DNA from: a virus
Reading direction: 5' to 3' (one strand)
Virus record (IMG/VR): IMGVR_UViG_3300035698_001366
Span: 1 to 23,588 of that record
DNA: 23,588 nt
The translations under genes and the position numbers were made by a program. The notes under the pieces were generated by a model that saw only the letters and a program-made list of their open reading frames with translations, did no database searches and was not told the DNA's origin. Positions 7,492 through 23,588 of the stretch are shown here, one piece after another. Position 1 is the stretch's first letter, and each line of letters starts with the position of its first letter.

Positions 7492-7952
7492 CAGAAACCT
7501 ACCGTTTCGTCAGTAAGCCACTCACTATTCTCAGTATCGAGACGCTCGTCACCTTCGGTAACAAACCCGATACCGAAATCCTCGTGACTAATCATTTTAC
7601 CTTGGAATACGAACTCTATCGTAGATAAGTCGCCACAAATACCCTTGCGCTTATAGATAAGTTTCAAAGGCCATGTAATAATTATACCGTTCCACAGTAT
7701 ACCATTATGATCGGTATAATTGATTGCGGCTCCAATATTAGCCCGCATGAATGTAATAAGATTTTCTAAATCACTATCTTCTAACAGATCAAAAACTAGT
7801 TTAAGTCTTTCAATGGTCGGGTTGTTCTTGTATGTAACAATATCTCCACTCTGCATCTTTTGTGGGTCAACATTACCTATGAAAGAATGAATATCACCCG
7901 GCATAGGGTTTTTAAGTGTTACCGATCCTGTCCCAACTAAAGTAACACTCAT
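7491..7952 (-). CDS. Distal tail paralogue C (153 aa)
   Basis: Third of three consecutive related genes after the tape measure. It shares with the other two an opening VTLKNPMPGD motif (V-T-[LV]-x-N-P-x-x-G), a mid part of the form L-x-F-x-x-x-x-x-x-x-D (KLVFDLLEDSDLENLITFMRA), a DH box (YTDHNGILWNGIIIT) and a closing F-x-F strand (IEFVFQG). It has about 40 extra C-terminal residues rich in Asp/Glu. Start ATG 7952 overlaps the stop of paralogue B (ATGA). Position suggests a component of the tail tip ring, comparable to lambda gpM/gpL or a half distal-tail domain; no specific family is claimed. Confidence 0.65.
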   Translation of the reverse strand: MSVTLVGTGSVTLKNPMPGDIHSFIGNVDPQKMQSGDIVTYKNNPTIERLKLVFDLLEDSDLENLITFMRANIGAAINYTDHNGILWNGIIITWPLKLIYKRKGICGDLSTIEFVFQGKMISHEDFGIGFVTEGDERLDTENSEWLTDETVGF

Positions 7953-14383: not shown

Positions 14384-14926
14384 CTATATCTGCGCTGACC
14401 TAAGGACAGTCGCATCCGTAACGTTACACTTGCCCGTAATAGCGCAAGTCCCGGCCTTCAGGTCGTGTGCAATTGATTCATATCGGAAATCAGCAAGAGT
14501 GATTACTTCACTATCCCCACATGCCGCTGGAGTCGGTGTGTAAGTAATTATGATATCAATCGCATACGGTGCACATGCATCAGCGTCAGTTGATGTCCAA
14601 CTCGCAGCAGCACCAACTTGCTTCAATGCATCCTCAATCGTTGGCGTACCACCACTCGTGGTAGAGGCACTAGATGGACCTCGGACATATTCCCAGGTGA
14701 AGTCGAAATTGACCTCAACGGGTTCTTCATCTCCATTCCGGACCGTGTCAAGATTTCCACGGTTCTTGATATACTCCCGATTAACTTTCTCGGAGTAGGT
14801 CAAGTTGCCTTCACCGATCTTAACTTCAATAGAGTTAGCCGCAGCTAAATCCTGCAGCGTAACAACAGCATTCTTGAAGTCAAAATTAGCAAAGACTGTC
14901 TGCCACGGACTTGCTCGTAGCTTCAT
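14384..14926 (-). CDS. Putative major tail (tube) protein (180 aa)
   Basis: Medium-size, beta-rich protein just upstream of the chaperone gene, the normal place of the tube subunit. Residues about 37-80 (KIGEGNLTYSEKVNREYIKN, then EEPVEVNFDFTWEYV) resemble tube proteins in which a strand-rich core describes an added or compared quantity, and the C-terminus closes with beta strands (FRYESIAHDLKAGTCAITGK). The N-terminus reads MKLRASPWQTVFANFDF, and its W-Q-T-V-F part matches W-K-T-V-F at the start of the scaffold and coat proteins. Start ATG 14926 overlaps the stop of the preceding gene (TAATG) and follows AAAGGAGCAATTTA, close to the scaffold leader. Tube role is from position and style. Confidence 0.7.
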   Translation of the reverse strand: MKLRASPWQTVFANFDFKNAVVTLQDLAAANSIEVKIGEGNLTYSEKVNREYIKNRGNLDTVRNGDEEPVEVNFDFTWEYVRGPSSASTTSGGTPTIEDALKQVGAAASWTSTDADACAPYAIDIIITYTPTPAACGDSEVITLADFRYESIAHDLKAGTCAITGKCNVTDATVLRSAQI

Positions 14927-15375
14927 TAAATTGCTCCTTTGTATCTAGCCTCTACTGTTCCTTGTTGAACAGTAAGTTCCGGTTTAAGTTGTCCGTAATG
15001 AATTATCTCTATGCCCTGATCTCGTGACAAACATACAAGCTGTTCATCAGTATCCTCAACACCACTACCATACTTGTAAGCTATGATGGATTTTTCAAAC
15101 GCGGCACCCACCTGTCCGATTAAAGACCAATAAGTATGTGCCGAGTCAATTTTCGTATTGCATTGGACTAAAACATTAACATCTATCCCGAAAAGAGTCT
15201 CATTACCCAATGAATCTAAAATTCTTGGGCCATCCATACGGACTTCTATGAAACTCGCAACATCAGATGTTCGCCTCCGGAATCCTTCAATAAACACAAC
15301 AGTACCACTATCGAGAGTATCCTCGAAATGATTTCCGATAGAAGCGAATAACCATCTTGGTATATTTTCATTCAT
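14926..15375 (-). CDS. Putative tail terminator / head-tail joining protein (149 aa)
   Basis: Mixed alpha/beta protein between the head-closure candidate and the tube gene, where tail terminators (lambda gpU type) are usual. Visible elements: an N-terminal helix and strand (PRWLFASIGNHFEDTLDSGT), RMDGPRILDSLGNETLFGID, strand VNVLVQCNT, then a helix (HTYWSLIGQVGAAFEKSIIA) and a C-terminal strand pair. The strand-strand-helix layout after residue 60 fits the terminator fold. It overlaps the preceding gene by 8 bases and the tube gene by TAATG. No signature motif; assignment by order and length. Confidence 0.55.
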   Translation of the reverse strand: MNENIPRWLFASIGNHFEDTLDSGTVVFIEGFRRRTSDVASFIEVRMDGPRILDSLGNETLFGIDVNVLVQCNTKIDSAHTYWSLIGQVGAAFEKSIIAYKYGSGVEDTDEQLVCLSRDQGIEIIHYGQLKPELTVQQGTVEARYKGAI

Positions 15376-15781
15376 TTGATTTACTCTTGAGTTCCTTAGT
15401 CACTAATACATATCCTGCACCATTCTCCAAAATATGTACTTCTTTGATATCGTGATGTCTATTGTCGTAGACAATATAATAGTCAATAGCAGGAACGAAA
15501 TCAACCGTTAAATCCTTTGTGTCAATGATAAAGACCCTTGAACCTACATCGAAGTAACCACCATAAGAGAAATTACCACCAGCAATGTTTGAGAACTCTC
15601 GCTTCAATGTTTCTGGAAGAACAATCACTCGATTAATAGTCAATGATGGGAAATCTGCAAGATTTGTTCCTAGTTTATAATCTACTGTTACTGTGCCGGG
15701 CTTATACAAAACTATGCTCTGGCCAAAGTTACGTTTCAGCCTGTATAAGACTACTTTAACTTGCCTGAGCATATTCTGCAT
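15368..15781 (-). CDS. Putative head closure / stopper protein (137 aa)
   Basis: Beta-rich protein with a basic N-terminus (QVKVVLYRLKRNFGQSIVLY) and alternating strands through GGYFDVGSRVFIIDTKDL, ending IKEVHILENGAGYVLVTKEL. Small beta-barrel proteins of 100-140 residues that sit between connector and tail terminator genes are usually head closure proteins (SPP1 gp16 type), and the 'D.I......y.I......' course here is similar. Its ATG overlaps the stop of the membrane coiled-coil gene (TAATG). Function inferred from order; no catalytic motif expected or seen. Confidence 0.55.
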   Translation of the reverse strand: MQNMLRQVKVVLYRLKRNFGQSIVLYKPGTVTVDYKLGTNLADFPSLTINRVIVLPETLKREFSNIAGGNFSYGGYFDVGSRVFIIDTKDLTVDFVPAIDYYIVYDNRHHDIKEVHILENGAGYVLVTKELKSKSNE

Positions 15782-16128
15782 TAGTCCGCTCCCAGTTTAA
15801 TTAACACTCGTGTCAGCTTATTGTCTATCTCTTTCATTTCTCGTGTTAGCTTATTGTCTATCTCTTTCATGTCTAGTTTGATTTCAGTGATGTTCCCATT
15901 AGTTGTCTCGCAAGACTTTGTATTGAGTGATGTTGCTAAATCATTAGAGTTAAGTCTTAATCCAAGCCTAGTATTAGTTGCTTCGAGTTTGTCAATTCTA
16001 GTTTTACTGTTAGCCTCGTTCGTACTTATTGTAGCCAGTAACATTGCCCCACAAATTAATGCAGTAATTACTGGCGTTGCAACAATTTTGAAAATAATCA
16101 TTGTTGTGCTCTTTTGCTTTTCGGTCAT
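15781..16128 (-). CDS. Membrane-anchored coiled-coil protein with an 11-residue duplication (115 aa)
   Basis: I start at ATG 16128, preceded by GGAAAGG, rather than at GTG 16170, which would begin inside a strong hairpin. After a short basic head (MTEKQKSTT) comes one hydrophobic helix (residues about 10-31, IIFKIVATPVITALICGAML), then a long charged coiled coil. The end holds MKEIDNKLTRE followed directly by MKEIDNKLTR, from a 31-base near-perfect duplication with a 33-base period. The gene stands between coat and head closure, where a membrane protein is not expected. It could be an envelope protein made with the virion genes. No known family recognised. Confidence 0.75.
   Translation of the reverse strand: MTEKQKSTTMIIFKIVATPVITALICGAMLLATISTNEANSKTRIDKLEATNTRLGLRLNSNDLATSLNTKSCETTNGNITEIKLDMKEIDNKLTREMKEIDNKLTRVLIKLGAD
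15807..15870 (-). repeat. Two-copy 31-base direct repeat (33-base period)
   Basis: Copies at 15807-15837 and 15840-15870 differ at one base. They encode the duplicated MKEIDNKLTR units at the C-terminus of the membrane coiled-coil protein. The period of 33 bases keeps the frame and adds 11 residues, one and a half heptads, per copy. Confidence 0.9.
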
Positions 16129-16151
16129 CAGCCTAACCTTTCCAAAGAGGT

Positions 16152-16180
16152 TGGGAGGGGCGGCAGCCACGCCCCTCCCA
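16152..16180 (-). terminator. GC-rich hairpin after the coat protein gene
   Basis: An 11-bp inverted repeat (TGGGAGGGGCG / CGCCCCTCCCA) with a 7-base loop starts 18 bases after the coat protein stop codon on the minus strand. A CT-rich stretch but no true U-run follows, then the ribosome-binding site of the next gene. It is in the right place to stop or protect the abundant coat mRNA. Confidence 0.65.
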
Positions 16181-16198
16181 TGGTACCTAGGTATCTAA

Positions 16199-17599
16199 TT
16201 AAGCTAAGTAAATTGCTCCAAGACTAGTATTAAGGGTCTTAACACCAGCTAAGCAATCGACCGTTACACGTTTACCCTGTGCAGAGCCATCATAAGTCAT
16301 CGTAACACGTATCGACAACCCATTATAGCTAGCCACAAACGACAGAGCACCCGTACCTGCTGGCGGCAAGGCCAACGGACGCATAACTAAAGCCAGAGCA
16401 TTCTTATGGAATGCAAAGTTATAGTCACCATCTGGGCCTAGATTAACCAAGTCACCATCAGTGATTCCGGCATCCAACTGTCGGTCCAACTGCAACAGAA
16501 CTGTAGTTGGAGTAGACATAGCCGAATATACCTCATCAGCTGTACCGAAACTAATCAACTGTCCAACCTTTGGTACATGAGTACCAGAGAAGATAGTCGT
16601 AACGATCGGTTTCGTCCAGCCAGAGGCATAGTCGTCGCCGTTGTTGACATCACCTGATGTATAAATCGTGACAGCCGCGTCATTAACAACAGCCGTTACC
16701 AGACCTGGGTCAATAGTGATCGACGTACAAGCACCACCACCACCAACAGTACTAGTAATACGCTGCGGAATCATATCGCCAGCAATAGTACACCAGCAAC
16801 CAGTAGCCTCAGTACCAGTAATAGTCATACCATCAACCACAATTGTGGTAGCACCGACAGCATAACCGGCACTCAAGTTGACAGCACCAGCATCTGGCGT
16901 CGCAGCACCATTACTGATACTCGGCACATTCTGACACATAAAGGTATTAAACCCGAACTTGCGCCCGAGAGAACCTTCACGCAGGGTAGTACCTTCGTCA
17001 CCAACCTTTTCGGCATTGAGGAAATCTGCAATATTAAGTAAGGCGCCCTCAGTAGTCGGACAAACAATCAAGTTACGTCCAGACTGCGGAACCTTATTTG
17101 CATTCATAACCTCACGCAAGTCGATAAGACCCTTACGTGTAGGTGTAGTCCCCAATTTACCAGCACGATTGGTCATGAACTGATAAACCTGACCGCAGAC
17201 AATTTCGTCAACCGCTTGCGCGATAGACATAACTGCCGGGGTGAGGAACTCAGTAATAAGAGACTTCAGTCCCTTAGATTCCTGCCCGTCCTTGATGATA
17301 AACGTGGTATGCAGGTGCTGATTTAACTTAACTGCCACGTTAGTGGCCGTCGGAGTTTGGTCAGTAACACTGTCAGAGGCAATCTTCTTAACAGCCGTGA
17401 ATGTCCCCGGCTGCCGAGTATTGACCACGTCCCCATAGCTAGCAACCTTATCCTCGAAATCCCTATGGACAAGATTTGCCGCCACCATGTTTGCCTCAAG
17501 AATCATCAAGGATTCTTGAGCCCAGACTTCAGGAATATAGCAATCGGGGAAACTAGTTCCCGCGAAAACTGTTTTCCACGCTCGTGTCTTAGTATCCAT
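16199..17599 (-). CDS. Major capsid protein, P22 coat-like (466 aa)
   Basis: Shell subunit. The layout is that of P22-type HK97-fold coats: an N-terminal helix region with VWAQESLMILEANMVAANLV, then DKVASYGDVVNTRQPGTFTA (the extended-loop 'G.tv..r.P..f' line), LNQHLHTTFIIKDGQESKGL, a long spine helix, and RNLIVCPTTEGALLNIADFL. A beta-rich insertion (about residues 240-390) with GDMIPQRITSTVGG and ITIDPGLVTAV fits the insertion domain, followed by YNFAFHKNALALVMRPLALP, the strong 'fHk.Al.l..rPl' signature. The N-terminus MDTKTRAWKTVFAG shares W-K-T-V-F with the scaffold. ATG 17599 follows AAGGAG. The gene lies directly after the scaffold, as expected. Confidence 0.9.
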   Translation of the reverse strand: MDTKTRAWKTVFAGTSFPDCYIPEVWAQESLMILEANMVAANLVHRDFEDKVASYGDVVNTRQPGTFTAVKKIASDSVTDQTPTATNVAVKLNQHLHTTFIIKDGQESKGLKSLITEFLTPAVMSIAQAVDEIVCGQVYQFMTNRAGKLGTTPTRKGLIDLREVMNANKVPQSGRNLIVCPTTEGALLNIADFLNAEKVGDEGTTLREGSLGRKFGFNTFMCQNVPSISNGAATPDAGAVNLSAGYAVGATTIVVDGMTITGTEATGCWCTIAGDMIPQRITSTVGGGGACTSITIDPGLVTAVVNDAAVTIYTSGDVNNGDDYASGWTKPIVTTIFSGTHVPKVGQLISFGTADEVYSAMSTPTTVLLQLDRQLDAGITDGDLVNLGPDGDYNFAFHKNALALVMRPLALPPAGTGALSFVASYNGLSIRVTMTYDGSAQGKRVTVDCLAGVKTLNTSLGAIYLA

Positions 17600-17610
17600 T
17601 CAACTACTCC

Positions 17611-18429
17611 TTATTGAAATTGTGTTTCACCGCTCTTACGCGATGCCCTATATGCCTCAGTATCTGTTGCTAATGACGCTAAATCAGGAGCCTTTCCGCT
17701 CGTTTGGTTGAACCCGCCAAGGCCACCAACACCGTCTACACGGAATAAATTACTATATTGCTCCATTTCACTCATCCTCTTGACTGCTTCATTGATTGGA
17801 AGATCAAGAGTAACCAGCTTATCATCTTTATCCTTGTCGTCAAACTTAATTTGTGCGATGAGTTTGCCAGTTGAACTACCATCCTTACCGATCTCCTCGA
17901 CGAGTCGAGTATCTGTACTTAACATACGAACGAGCTGGTCAGGGCTGACAGCACCGTTCTCGATAGCAGCATCCTGGATAGACCTCAAAATAGTTGATTC
18001 TGTAAATCTTGTTTGCCATTCGTCACGTTCACCTGTAAGTGTTTCGACTTCAGTCTTATGCGCTTTGTCAAGTTTCTCTTTATCTTTAGCTGAAAGTTGT
18101 TCTTTAGTAAGCATTTCGTTTTGAATTTGCTCAATACGTGCCTCAAGTTCACCACGTTCTTTCTCAGTCAGGTTTGACCGAGTCTTAAGAGCTTGAACTT
18201 CGTCAAAAGCCTTCTTAACTCGCGCGTCATTTTCACGCTTCTCTTTTGCCACAACTGTATTCAGTTGCTCTTGTGTGAATGTTTTTGTTTTTGTCTTTGG
18301 CTTAGGTTCCGGTTCCGGTTCCGGATCTGGATCTGGATCTGGATCTGGATCTGGATCTGGATCTGGATCTGGATCTGGATCACCTTCGAAAACTGTTTTC
18401 CACATATCCCATTCTTGACTGCGTCCCAT
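17611..18429 (-). CDS. Capsid scaffolding protein with Asp-Pro repeat linker (272 aa)
   Basis: Assembly scaffold placed directly before the coat gene. The order is: an N-terminal peptide MGRSQEWDMWKTVFEG; a low-complexity acidic linker of ten DP, three EP and KPKTKTKT units (residues about 17-50); a long charged coiled coil (QEQLNTVVAKEKREND through KDKEKLDKAHKTEVETL); and a C-terminal region with ILRSIQDAAIENGAVSPDQL and RMLSTDTRLVEEI, the usual end of GP20-like phage scaffolds. ATG 18429 follows AAAGGAGCAGTTAA, close to the tail tube leader. No protease domain is fused. The DP linker is odd and probably unstructured; its role is unknown. Confidence 0.85.
   Translation of the reverse strand: MGRSQEWDMWKTVFEGDPDPDPDPDPDPDPDPDPDPEPEPEPKPKTKTKTFTQEQLNTVVAKEKRENDARVKKAFDEVQALKTRSNLTEKERGELEARIEQIQNEMLTKEQLSAKDKEKLDKAHKTEVETLTGERDEWQTRFTESTILRSIQDAAIENGAVSPDQLVRMLSTDTRLVEEIGKDGSSTGKLIAQIKFDDKDKDDKLVTLDLPINEAVKRMSEMEQYSNLFRVDGVGGLGGFNQTSGKAPDLASLATDTEAYRASRKSGETQFQ
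18305..18382 (-). repeat. Hexanucleotide microsatellite inside the scaffold gene
   Basis: On the plus strand three GGTTCC-type units are followed by nine perfect GGATCT units and one GGATCA. On the coding strand they read GAT CCA (Asp-Pro) ten times and GAA CCG/CCT (Glu-Pro) three times. The six-base period keeps the frame, so slippage changes linker length without breaking the gene. Confidence 0.95.
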
Positions 18430-18903: not shown

Positions 18904-18958
18904 CTTCTTGGAGCCCAGCTTCTCGGAGCCGGCTCCAAGAAGCCGGGCTTCTTGGAAG
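18904..18958. repeat. Long inverted repeat between portal and connector genes
   Basis: A near-perfect inverted repeat occupies 18912-18930 and 18931-18949, with 12 bases GGAGCCGGCTCC fully palindromic at its centre. In minus-strand RNA the few non-Watson-Crick positions are G-U pairs, so a stem of more than 15 pairs with a small loop can form. A direct repeat of CTTCTTGGA flanks it at 18904 and 18949. It fills most of the 74-base gap and may stop or attenuate transcription after the portal, or mark a mobile element end; no U-run follows. Confidence 0.75.
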
Positions 18959-18959
18959 C

Positions 18960-20663: not shown

Positions 20664-20680
20664 ATTACTCTCCTGCCCAA

Positions 20681-20767
20681 GCTATTAGACTAGACTGCTA
20701 TTAGACTAGACTGCTATTAGACTAGACTGCTATTAGACTAGACTGCTATTAGACTAGACTGCTATTA
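20681..20767. repeat. 16-base tandem repeat (5.4 copies) between terminase and portal
   Basis: Five perfect copies of GCTATTAGACTAGACT start at 20681 and are followed by a partial seventh-base copy ending at 20767. There are no spacers, so this is not a CRISPR. It abuts the 8-base array at 20771 and lies fully within the gap before the portal ribosome-binding site. Confidence 0.95.
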
Positions 20768-20770
20768 TCT

Positions 20771-20837
20771 TGGAAGCTTGGAAGCTTGGAAGCTTGGAAG
20801 CTTGGAAGCTTGGAAGCTTGGAAGCTTGGAAGCTTGG
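20771..20837. repeat. 8-base tandem repeat TGGAAGCT (8 copies)
   Basis: Eight perfect copies of TGGAAGCT, giving an AAGCTT palindrome at each junction, end 3 bases before the terminase stop codon. Related GGAAGCTTGG or GGGAGCTTG elements occur at 18949-18958 (degenerate), 22752-22823 and 23514-23588. Confidence 0.95.
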
Positions 20838-20839
20838 CT

Positions 20840-22468
20840 TTAGTAACTATTGATATTCTGCGATGCCATAAGTGTTACAGCCATATGCAATGCTACTTCG
20901 TTATATACACGAGCATGTGCGAAGTGATCATCATCCTTTTCGGCCTTAATATAGCGACCAACAGGATTATCATTAGCATCCTTGCTGTAATGTCTTACAG
21001 GTGCTTTGATATGTGCTCTGTACTCTAGGCTCAGGTCTTTAGGAAGCCTTATTGTATGAGCCTTGAACCGGCCTAAAGCAATATCCATCCAACTAGTCCG
21101 GTCAACTGTAACTTTTGGCTCATCAGTGCCAAGACTGATTTCGCGATTTTGGCTGTTACTATAAAAACATATTTTACAACGTCCAAAGAATTTTTCAGCA
21201 AATTCTTTTGCGAGCCTTCGCTCGGGTTGTGCATCTAGCACAGTATACTTAATATTGTGATCATAAATCAAAGGAATAAGGTCATCAAAATTTTCTACTG
21301 TGCCTTCATTAAGTAACTTACCTACTGTGCTTAAATGTACATCAGTACCCGGTTTTCCTAAAAACCATTCAGTGATTTCATAGTGAATCAATTTACCGAT
21401 ATCCGCGCCCATTGTAATAATGCTGTCCCGCTTCGCGGGGCCCTTAACATGGTCACCAATACAAGCATCAATATCAGCGTCAGTAATCTTTGCACCGCCA
21501 ACCGTGTAGGGTTGACCTAATTTACTGTTATGTAACTCTTGTGCTGTTGTTGGGTCATGCTCGGCTCTTAATACGAACTGTGCAATGTCTCCGGGTGTTA
21601 CAGTCATACTGTAAAGCTGGTTGATATAGAAGCCTCTTGACAATTTACCGGGACTAGCAGGAACCCAAATACCATCGGCCATGTAGTTAACTTTATCGGC
21701 ATGATCTAACTTATGCTTACATTCAGGGCAAGTGATGTAAGAATCAAGAATCTTAGGGTCATCCTCATTATCAGCCGTGATAACTAGGTTATCTAAGCCC
21801 TCAAGCTCAATGAGTTTTGAGCAATGTGGACACTTAAAATGGAAATGTTCTCCAGTACTCTTCAAGTACAGATTATTGATACCGTGATTAGGTATTGTTG
21901 GTGTACTGATATATACTTCTTGCTTATCGATCTGACCAGATAACCGTTCGGTTGCTAGTGTAACATTCTTGCTAGGCATCTCATCACGTTCATCAAAGAT
22001 GAGTAACGCAACCGGTACTGACTTAAGTTGTGATCGCGATCGCGATCCACGGACGAACAAATTTGCTGCACCAGCTCTTTTGTGTCCTACGTTCCGTGTG
22101 TCAGTAAACAAGTTACTTAGATGCTCGCTTAACTCCAGAGCCGGGTCAAACCGGCTATTACTGAAGTCTGATGCATCTGGTGTTGCTGCCGGTAAAACGT
22201 AAAGTACACTTTCCCCACGAACGTCAATACTGAAAAACGTCAGATTCAAACAGAACTCGGTATAACCCATCTGGGCCGCTTTCTGCCCAATGATTGTTCC
22301 TTTAGCATCATGCATCTCACGTGTCCAAGGATGATGTGTAAATCTCCAAGGTCCAGTGAAAGGCTTAGCTATTACTCGGTATGTTTCAGCCCATTTAGAG
22401 CAAGAAGTTACGGACTTTCTGGTCAGTCCTTGTATCACACGCTCATGTAATAGTTGTTCTAGATTCAT
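20840..22468 (-). CDS. terL: Terminase large subunit, GpA family (542 aa)
   Basis: DNA packaging motor and nuclease. I start at ATG 22468, which has AGGAG nine bases upstream; the in-frame ATG 22504 has none and would overlap the preceding gene. The lambda GpA order is clear: a basic aromatic N-terminus (WAETYRVIAKPFTGPWRFTH), the deviant Walker A GQKAAQMGYTE at about residues 61-71, Walker B ALLIFDERDEMP near 154-165, and a zinc ribbon with C213, C216, C247, C250. Next is WVPASPGKLSRGFYINQLYS, then the nuclease part with IITMGADIGKLIHYEITEW and YTVLDAQPERR. Length is below lambda gpA (641 aa), with the C-terminal portal-binding part short. It overlaps no gene and is followed by the repeat arrays. 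Confidence 0.92.
   Translation of the reverse strand: MNLEQLLHERVIQGLTRKSVTSCSKWAETYRVIAKPFTGPWRFTHHPWTREMHDAKGTIIGQKAAQMGYTEFCLNLTFFSIDVRGESVLYVLPAATPDASDFSNSRFDPALELSEHLSNLFTDTRNVGHKRAGAANLFVRGSRSRSQLKSVPVALLIFDERDEMPSKNVTLATERLSGQIDKQEVYISTPTIPNHGINNLYLKSTGEHFHFKCPHCSKLIELEGLDNLVITADNEDDPKILDSYITCPECKHKLDHADKVNYMADGIWVPASPGKLSRGFYINQLYSMTVTPGDIAQFVLRAEHDPTTAQELHNSKLGQPYTVGGAKITDADIDACIGDHVKGPAKRDSIITMGADIGKLIHYEITEWFLGKPGTDVHLSTVGKLLNEGTVENFDDLIPLIYDHNIKYTVLDAQPERRLAKEFAEKFFGRCKICFYSNSQNREISLGTDEPKVTVDRTSWMDIALGRFKAHTIRLPKDLSLEYRAHIKAPVRHYSKDANDNPVGRYIKAEKDDDHFAHARVYNEVALHMAVTLMASQNINSY
22032..22047. repeat. 16-base perfect palindrome inside the terminase gene
   Basis: GATCGCGATCGCGATC reads the same on both strands and encodes S-R-S-R-S just before Walker B. 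It holds three overlapping GATC sites. It may be coincidence of a repeated Ser-Arg codon pair. Confidence 0.9.
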
Positions 22469-22733: not shown

Positions 22734-22751
22734 TAGTTCGTCCTTTCATTT

Positions 22752-22823
22752 CTACAGGAAGCTCGGCTAAAGGAAGCTTGGCTTCTGGGCTACAGGAAGC
22801 TCGGAAGCTTGGCTTCTGGAAGC
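22752..22823. repeat. Short direct repeats with AAGCTT core between small-terminase and hypothetical gene
   Basis: CTACAGGAAGCTCGG occurs at 22752 and 22790, and GGAAGCTTGGCTTCTGG at 22772 and 22803. The unit shares the GGAAGCT core with the arrays at 20771 and 23514. Together they fill the 90-base gap apart from the ribosome-binding site of the next gene. Confidence 0.85.
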
Positions 22824-23378: not shown

Positions 23379-23513
23379 TTGGGTAAGGATATAATATCCC
23401 TACTACCTATTACGGGGGATCAAGTAAAAAGTTTCCAACTGTTTTATCTAAATTTCTCGATGAGAAATTACGTCCGGTCAGTGATTCTTAAATCACTAGG
23501 CTTCTAGGCTCCA
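23379..23513. other. Non-coding leader of the structural module with three dyads
   Basis: No gene is seen. It holds three inverted repeats: GGATATAATATCC at 23387-23399 (6-bp arms), AATTTCTC-GAT-GAGAAATT at 23451-23469 (8-bp arms, 3-base loop), and AGTGATT-CTTA-AATCACT at 23480-23497 (7-bp arms). A sigma-70 promoter for the minus strand is plausible here but no well-spaced -35/-10 pair stands out. The dyads could be operators or the terminator of an upstream transcript. Confidence 0.5.
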
Positions 23514-23588
23514 GGAAGCTTGACTCTCGGGAGCTTGACTCTCGGGAGCTTGGCTCTCGGGAGCTTGACTCTCGGGAGCTTGACTCTC
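23514..23588. repeat. 15-base tandem repeat running off the window edge (5 copies)
   Basis: Five copies of GGGAGCTTGACTCTC (first copy GGAAGCTTGACTCTC, third with GGCTCTC) occupy 23514-23588 with no spacer and end exactly at the last base, so the array probably continues outside. The core is related to the AAGCTT elements downstream. Confidence 0.9.

Follow-up and report, generated by a model that had tools for sequence, protein, structure and literature searches.

Three virion proteins with similar N-termini

The stretch of DNA analyzed here, referred to as the window, is a 23.6 kb fragment (23,588 nucleotides) of viral DNA that stops short of the replication region, where related phages encode a protease-like gene. 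Its minus strand encodes a head scaffolding protein, a major coat protein and a tail tube protein, each of which carries a short N-terminal sequence, hereafter called the tag:

17611 to 18429, minus strand: head scaffolding protein gene, 272 aa (phrog_206, head scaffolding, E 6.9e-8)
18388 to 18429, minus strand: scaffold N-terminal tag, putative leader or propeptide (residues 1-14, MGRSQEWDMWKTVF), from the sequence, with profile and junction taken from relatives
18310 to 18381, minus strand: acidic low-complexity linker of Asp-Pro/Glu-Pro repeats, immediately after the predicted scaffold junction
16199 to 17599, minus strand: major coat protein gene, 466 aa, P22-gp5 type (PF11651, E 7.7e-30; phrog_283, E 1.8e-68)
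17564 to 17599, minus strand: coat N-terminal tag (residues 1-12, MDTKTRAWKTVF), from the sequence
14384 to 14926, minus strand: tail tube protein gene, 180 aa, from position and homology to relatives' genes
14891 to 14926, minus strand: tube N-terminal tag (residues 1-12, MKLRASPWQTVF), from the sequence

The coat protein scored 104.4 bits against PF11651 (P22_CoatProtein; curated cut-off 24), which places it in the P22-gp5 coat family, and in relatives the scaffold gene lies directly upstream of the coat gene. The tail tube protein gave no PHROG match and no Pfam match above cut-off; its gene is flanked by tail terminator-like and tape-measure-chaperone-like genes. These results uphold the gene identities of the original prediction and its statement that the three proteins are otherwise non-homologous, scaffold (phrog_206), coat (PF11651/phrog_283) and tube (without a PHROG match) being of different families. 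At the scaffold site occupied by the acidic linker in the window, relatives have EG/DG-, PA- or Ala-rich stretches.

The motif W[K/Q]TVF is present on all three N-termini, as had been described: MGRSQEWDM-WKTVF-EG in the scaffold (W10-F14, 18388-18402), MDTKTRA-WKTVF-AG in the coat (17564-17578) and MKLRASP-WQTVF-AN in the tube (14891-14905). The 17 bases reported as common to the scaffold and coat copies match exactly, and the tube copy is indeed written in different codons (TGG CAG ACA GTC TTT). A search of all six frames of the window for W-x-[TS]-[VIL]-[FYLW] gave five occurrences; three are these N-termini, one is internal to a 730-aa ORF and one falls in a frame that stop codons interrupt. 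In an AlphaFold2 model of the window coat, residues 1-17 form the main disordered stretch (pLDDT < 50). The motif is short, and three similar N-termini in a single window could by themselves coincide.

The window has other repeated sequences. Short intergenic repeat arrays of related make-up lie between virion genes at 18910-18959, 20665-20848, 22747-22823 and 23489-23588; they include nine copies of CTTGGAAG, an array of the 16-base GCTATTAGACTAGACT and, at the contig end, 15-base GGGAGCTTGACTCTC units. A 129-aa ORF between the coat and head-completion genes contains an in-frame 33-base tandem duplication (15807-15872, 94% identical) that repeats EMKEIDNKLTR. Three phages of more than 100 kb have a second ORF resembling coat model positions ~231-319 (G002:86402-86602, G003:92993-93262 and G004:79743-79997), perhaps a shared inserted surface domain borne by another protein.

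N-terminal tags in related phages

A search with the coat protein returned 39 viral contigs, and two more profile searches raised the set to about 130 distinct contigs, all of them uncultured viral contigs except for one contig from a metagenome-assembled genome (MAG). In nearly all, the scaffold and the coat have an N-terminal extension of common sequence, 7-30 residues long, and often the tube does too; the portal or the tape measure is rarely tagged. The sequence differs from phage to phage. Tags alike within one phage include PWFVVF/IWNPVF/PWIPVF (L001), YYVTY/YPTTY/YPTTY (L009), PWVIIG/RNIVG/RPIVG (L031), RKYLIPH/RKYPVPH/RSYLVPH (L025), ADARPIAH/ADARPIAH (L016), IQLTIC/IQLTIC (L104) and IRQAYF/IRQAYF (L093).

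Exact W[K/Q]TVF is the version of the window phage only, and most relatives lack it because each has its own version, common to its own proteins. The rule that absence of the motif from most homologues should count as refutation would have misled. A fixed-motif search (W-x-[TS]-[VIL]-F) recovered few of the tagged relatives, so that comparison within genomes was required.

N-termini were therefore scored against those of the same and of other genomes, after near-duplicate genomes had been taken out. The scaffold-coat score was 32.6 within a genome and 17.8 between genomes; the corresponding values were 26.4 and 15.9 for coat and tube, and 23.5 and 16.6 for scaffold and tube. None of 20,000 permutations scored as high for any of the three pairs. 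Replication in dozens of genomes with different tags, together with this result, speaks against coincidence, and a functionless ancestral duplication would not keep the copies alike in each genome while they diverge between genomes. We consider it practically negligible that the N-termini are alike through chance or common descent without function.

A tag on every virion protein was also considered. A census of 22 long contigs yielded essentially scaffold, coat and tube, with few and mostly weak other matches at threshold. The tube tag is often absent from otherwise tagged phages, and such tubes begin M-A-Q-I-D.

Single phages have the tag on further proteins: on the portal in L005 (MRIWKSIFAG) and L013 (MMNIWYTVFTG), and on the tape measure in L005 (MKIWKSVFG) and L028 (MKSWMSVFA). 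The phage of L080 encodes a tandem pair of 91-aa paralogs of no assigned family (L128:7238-7510 and 7557-7829), which start with the tag of that phage (MRFAVATPVATSYD and MKFAIATSFASSFD) and are possibly further virion substrates. In the phage of L098, an insert (L138:2236-4606) splits the coat gene after ~35 residues; it carries a LAGLIDADG-like ORF and weakly matches a group I intron (E 0.046, below the gathering score). The 5' exon of this coat gene keeps a tag, GPFVTAY, matching LPFVTAY of the scaffold.

Conservation of the tags at the peptide level

The original prediction had argued from the window for selection on the peptide, and had asked whether conservation lies in the protein or the DNA. 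Across relatives the tags agree within genomes at the peptide level, while silent positions differ in most pairs and codons are mostly different: among identical residues the same codon was used in 3 of 10 cases in L016, 3 of 10 in L066 and 1 of 8 between coat and tube in L105. Overall, identical tag residues used the same codon in 50% of cases, compared with 41% expected from the codon usage of each genome (z 4.7). This small excess suggests some recent copying, of which the scaffold/coat pair of the window may be one case.

The same excess and the 17 bases common to the window scaffold and coat could also be taken to favor an initiation-region or other RNA/DNA element for high expression, with the likeness of the peptides as a by-product; scaffold, coat and tube are highly expressed genes. 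However, the codons differ at half of the identical residues, and the matches stay in frame, at a constant distance from the protein body but not from the start codon. The likeness of leaders pointed out earlier (AAAGGAGCArTTwA) is real in the window (85% over 20 nt), but the ribosome-binding site accounts for most of it. In relatives, agreement over the 20-nt leaders is only marginally better within a genome (6.4-7.1/20 matches) than between genomes (6.0-6.3/20). Both the codon and the leader tests count against a nucleic acid element, and the initiation-region explanation can be set aside as very improbable. The near-palindrome GAAAACAGTTTTC of the window scaffold and coat copies was likewise considered; it is not common to the tags of relatives.

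The junction between tag and protein body

The tags of the three proteins fit a common profile, [LI][LI][AS][KR][PIV]-W-x-[TPA]-V-[YF]|[ADE], in which the bar marks the junction. Aligned on this junction, the profile reads L/I at -10 and -9, a small residue at -8, K/R/T at -7, P/I/V/A at -6, W/F at -5, T/P/A at -3, V/A at -2 and Y/F at -1, the last in 87 of 99 scaffolds and 79 of 104 coats. After the junction follow D/E in the scaffold, A/D in the coat and A in the tube. Agreement between scaffold and coat within genomes peaks at -5, -3, -2 and -1 (z 10.7, 11.5, 10.4 and 7.0, values that include noise from automatic junction placing, which was wrong in a few genomes, e.g. the L075 scaffold and the L082 coat). 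By this alignment the cuts in the window are predicted at F14/E15 in the scaffold and at F12/A13 in both the coat and the tube.

In some relatives (L020/L023, L024, L074 and L305) the tag is absent from scaffold, coat and tube together, and the coat starts right at the junction, with M-AN or M-A. This is also where coats of the isolates R5C, Pan1, SSP002 and Hiyaa start, with (M/V)-A-N-T. Since untagged relatives, and also the untagged tubes of tagged phages, begin at the junction, the tag is a module set before the protein body. Three proteins that are otherwise unrelated thus carry genome-specific tags, which end at a fixed junction and match at the peptide level.

These data bear on whether the tag is cut off or retained. 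A retained tag could serve docking or self-recognition, the N-terminal peptides binding a common partner (a groove of the coat, a chaperone or each other) that unites the right virion proteins and coevolves with the tag. Any coevolving partner would fit genome-specific matching at the peptide level, and T4 has short N-terminal targeting peptides (PMC5694885). For docking, though, it is unexpected that the constraint is tightest right at the junction (-1, -2, -3 and -5) and ends there, as at a cut site, and that untagged relatives manage without a tag. Moreover, tube and coat are assembled by separate pathways with no common site.

A gene that accompanies the tags

The gene content of 15 tagged, near-complete contigs was set against that of two long contigs without tags. 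Only one of 34 families, a stand-alone protein of ~155 aa, was present in all 15 tagged contigs and in neither untagged one; a DNA-ligase-like family came close to this pattern (14/15 against 0/2). The argument from gene presence is one of few independent losses, with two untagged near relatives on long contigs. The ~155-aa protein was not found in the isolates R5C, Pan1, SSP002 and Hiyaa, and tblastn of the phage collection found no isolated phage with it.

In the reverse direction, the viral collection was scanned with the ~155-aa protein alone, which gave 13 contigs beyond those of the coat search. Eight of these hold a coat gene, and in all eight the scaffold and coat tags match (among them KLWITVF/KIWTPVF, NYYSLICF/NYYSLICF, RARLVCF/RARFVCF and YLSRPWVSCF/YLSRPFVACY). 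In the other five, probably fragments, there are replication genes but no virion genes were recognised, the coat included.

Three tagged contigs had no clear match to the protein: L333 and L071, which are fragments from which the replication module is missing entirely, and L025, whose syntenic ORF is highly diverged, contains Cys and His and is assigned as a homologue mainly by position. The gene lies among replication genes, away from the virion genes. In the MAG contig (L112; QQVP01000119.1, Planctomycetota, 444 kb) the tagged coat and the gene are ~36 kb apart, which gives a lead to Planctomycetota as hosts of the phage family.

The tags might instead be propeptides cut by another enzyme, from the host or an unrecognised phage protease, with some other role for the ~155-aa protein. 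There are just two untagged long relatives, which tend to lack other families as well. On the other hand, no other family occurs in all tagged and no untagged genomes, and the resemblance in fold to leader peptidases and the covariation rank, both described below, are independent of the presence test. A host protease also fails to explain the differences in tags among relatives unless the hosts differ accordingly. These results leave another enzyme improbable.

Predicted fold and covariation with the tags

The ~155-aa proteins are about 140-180 aa long and stand alone, with no ABC transporter part, so that they are not the N-terminal domain of a transporter. No curated Pfam family was matched at E<=1, and no PHROG. 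An AlphaFold2 model of the protein had a pLDDT of 95.4. Foldseek placed papain-like proteins (YopQ and staphopains) above any C39 domain, with an E of only 1.4e-3. In the ranking by VIA-align 2 the leading matches were C39 leader-peptidase domains, namely PCAT1 (Z 11.8), an AMS/PCAT protease in complex with its leader peptide (6mpz; Z 11.6) and ComA (Z 11.3); staphopains came after these at 10.6. The best C39 alignment, with Z up to 11.8 and an rmsd of 2.4 over 118 residues, points by a small margin over staphopains to a papain-like fold nearest to C39. Cys, His and Asp of the catalytic triad are invariant in 24 of 24 sequences. Judged from the model, the protein is C39-like in fold, and we do not file it as a member of the C39 family.

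The relationship between tags and protein was analyzed after junctions had been corrected by hand. Similarity of the tags tracks similarity of the ~155-aa protein (r 0.30, p 4e-4), also as a partial correlation on the coat core (0.24, p 0.002). Among 24 core families the protein ranked second in covariation with the tags, behind only the scaffold, in which the tag itself is contained. In the Mantel analysis its lead over the next control gene was modest (r 0.381 vs 0.343), and since control genes come this close, cophylogeny explains part of the covariation. The tags and one protease-like gene, which has a predicted fold with an intact triad, are thus present together and covary.

If the tag were retained, this protein would be unrelated to it or a reader that does not cut; some C39-like domains, such as that of HlyB, bind their substrate without cutting it. 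That a gene with a protease fold and an intact triad tracks the tags is, however, less expected of a docking peptide. Together with the constraint at the junction, this makes an uncut tag an unlikely reading, if a better one than another enzyme.

A proposed role for the tags

The original prediction had left open docking, targeting or processing, and was right in kind; the evidence favors processing. We propose, with a probability of about 0.7, that the tags are cleavable propeptides removed by a coevolving, stand-alone C39-like protease of the phage. Three things we infer here: the cleavage, the ~155-aa protein as its enzyme, and the purpose of the cut.

According to this proposal, the main self-assembling virion proteins (scaffold, coat and tube, and in relatives sometimes portal and tape measure) would be made with a leader. 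The last six or so residues of the leader would form the recognition core: an aromatic residue at -1, residues that are small or branched at -3 and -2, and in most cases W or F at -5. The phage C39-like cysteine protease would read this core and cut directly after the aromatic residue. The cut would leave a mature coat beginning A-N-D.. and a tube beginning A-Q-I-D-L-K, the N-termini of untagged relatives after removal of the initiator methionine. Most of the tagged proteins are ones that polymerise, so an uncut leader may hold back their assembly; cleavage would then license assembly, or ensure that coat, scaffold and tube do not polymerise until there is protease. The leader would drift jointly with the protease, as lock and key, and since the set of substrates and the enzyme must change together, tags would match within phages and drift between them. 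Retention of the tag and cleavage by another enzyme explain less simply that the constraint ends at the junction and that the protease is present and covaries with the tags.

It is also possible, though we would sooner doubt it, that assembly is licensed in a phage-specific manner, the C39-like protease having to unlock the phage's own coat, scaffold and tube before these can assemble. The rapid turnover of lock and key would then reflect conflict, for example with co-infecting phages or with satellites that use foreign virion proteins.

Relation to known systems and significance

Known prohead proteases have another fold, which is herpesvirus-assemblin-like. The candidate described here models as a papain/C39 fold and is encoded among replication genes, and its cleavage is a prediction; no prohead-protease gene was recognised among the window morphogenesis genes scanned. 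In T4, with its capsid targeting sequences and the prohead protease gp21, and in SPN3US and phiKZ, N-terminal propeptides are cut at a common motif by prohead proteases (PMC5694885, PMC10052503). Like these systems, the tagged phages have several structural proteins whose short N-terminal extensions share a motif. They differ in that the known substrates are head proteins with a simple, stable motif (A-X-E in SPN3US), whereas here the tube is tagged too and the motif is phage-specific.

C39 peptidases remove N-terminal leaders that they read via several hydrophobic positions (Val-4, Leu-7 and Leu-12; PMC6363468). The nearest solved folds to the candidate are the C39 domains of PCAT/AMS transporters (ComA, PCAT1 and LahT), which it resembles in its Cys-His-Asp triad, its domain size and the N-terminal leaders of its putative substrates. 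C39 enzymes cut after Gly-Gly and inside transporters, whereas the predicted junction here is V/A-[YF], with no Gly-Gly, and the putative substrates are virion proteins and not exported peptides. Nanhaivirus R5C and Pan1, Mardecavirus SSP002 and Hiyaavirus share with the tagged phages the P22-gp5-type coat family and a scaffold-like gene directly upstream of the coat, but, unlike them, have neither the tag nor the C39-like gene. Among open-access papers we found none on N-terminal tags common to coat and tube, and none on a phage maturation protease of the C39/papain-like kind. Removal of the leaders as the virion assembles is probably the work of a hitherto undescribed protease, rapidly evolving and of the lock-and-key type.

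The analysis thus predicts, from sequence alone, an undescribed maturation protease of a large uncultured phage family, with its substrates and cut sites, and the prediction is easily testable. Searching with a single fixed motif would miss such systems, which only matching within genomes reveals. About a hundred natural matched sets of substrates, with the protease genes known for some two dozen, provide material on the evolution of protease specificity. If the proposal is correct, the tail tube would join the head as a target of proteolytic maturation, and the fold of bacteriocin-leader peptidases would enter virion assembly. Phage-specific licensing, if true, would be a form of assembly control unknown in phages, acting on head and tail in one step.
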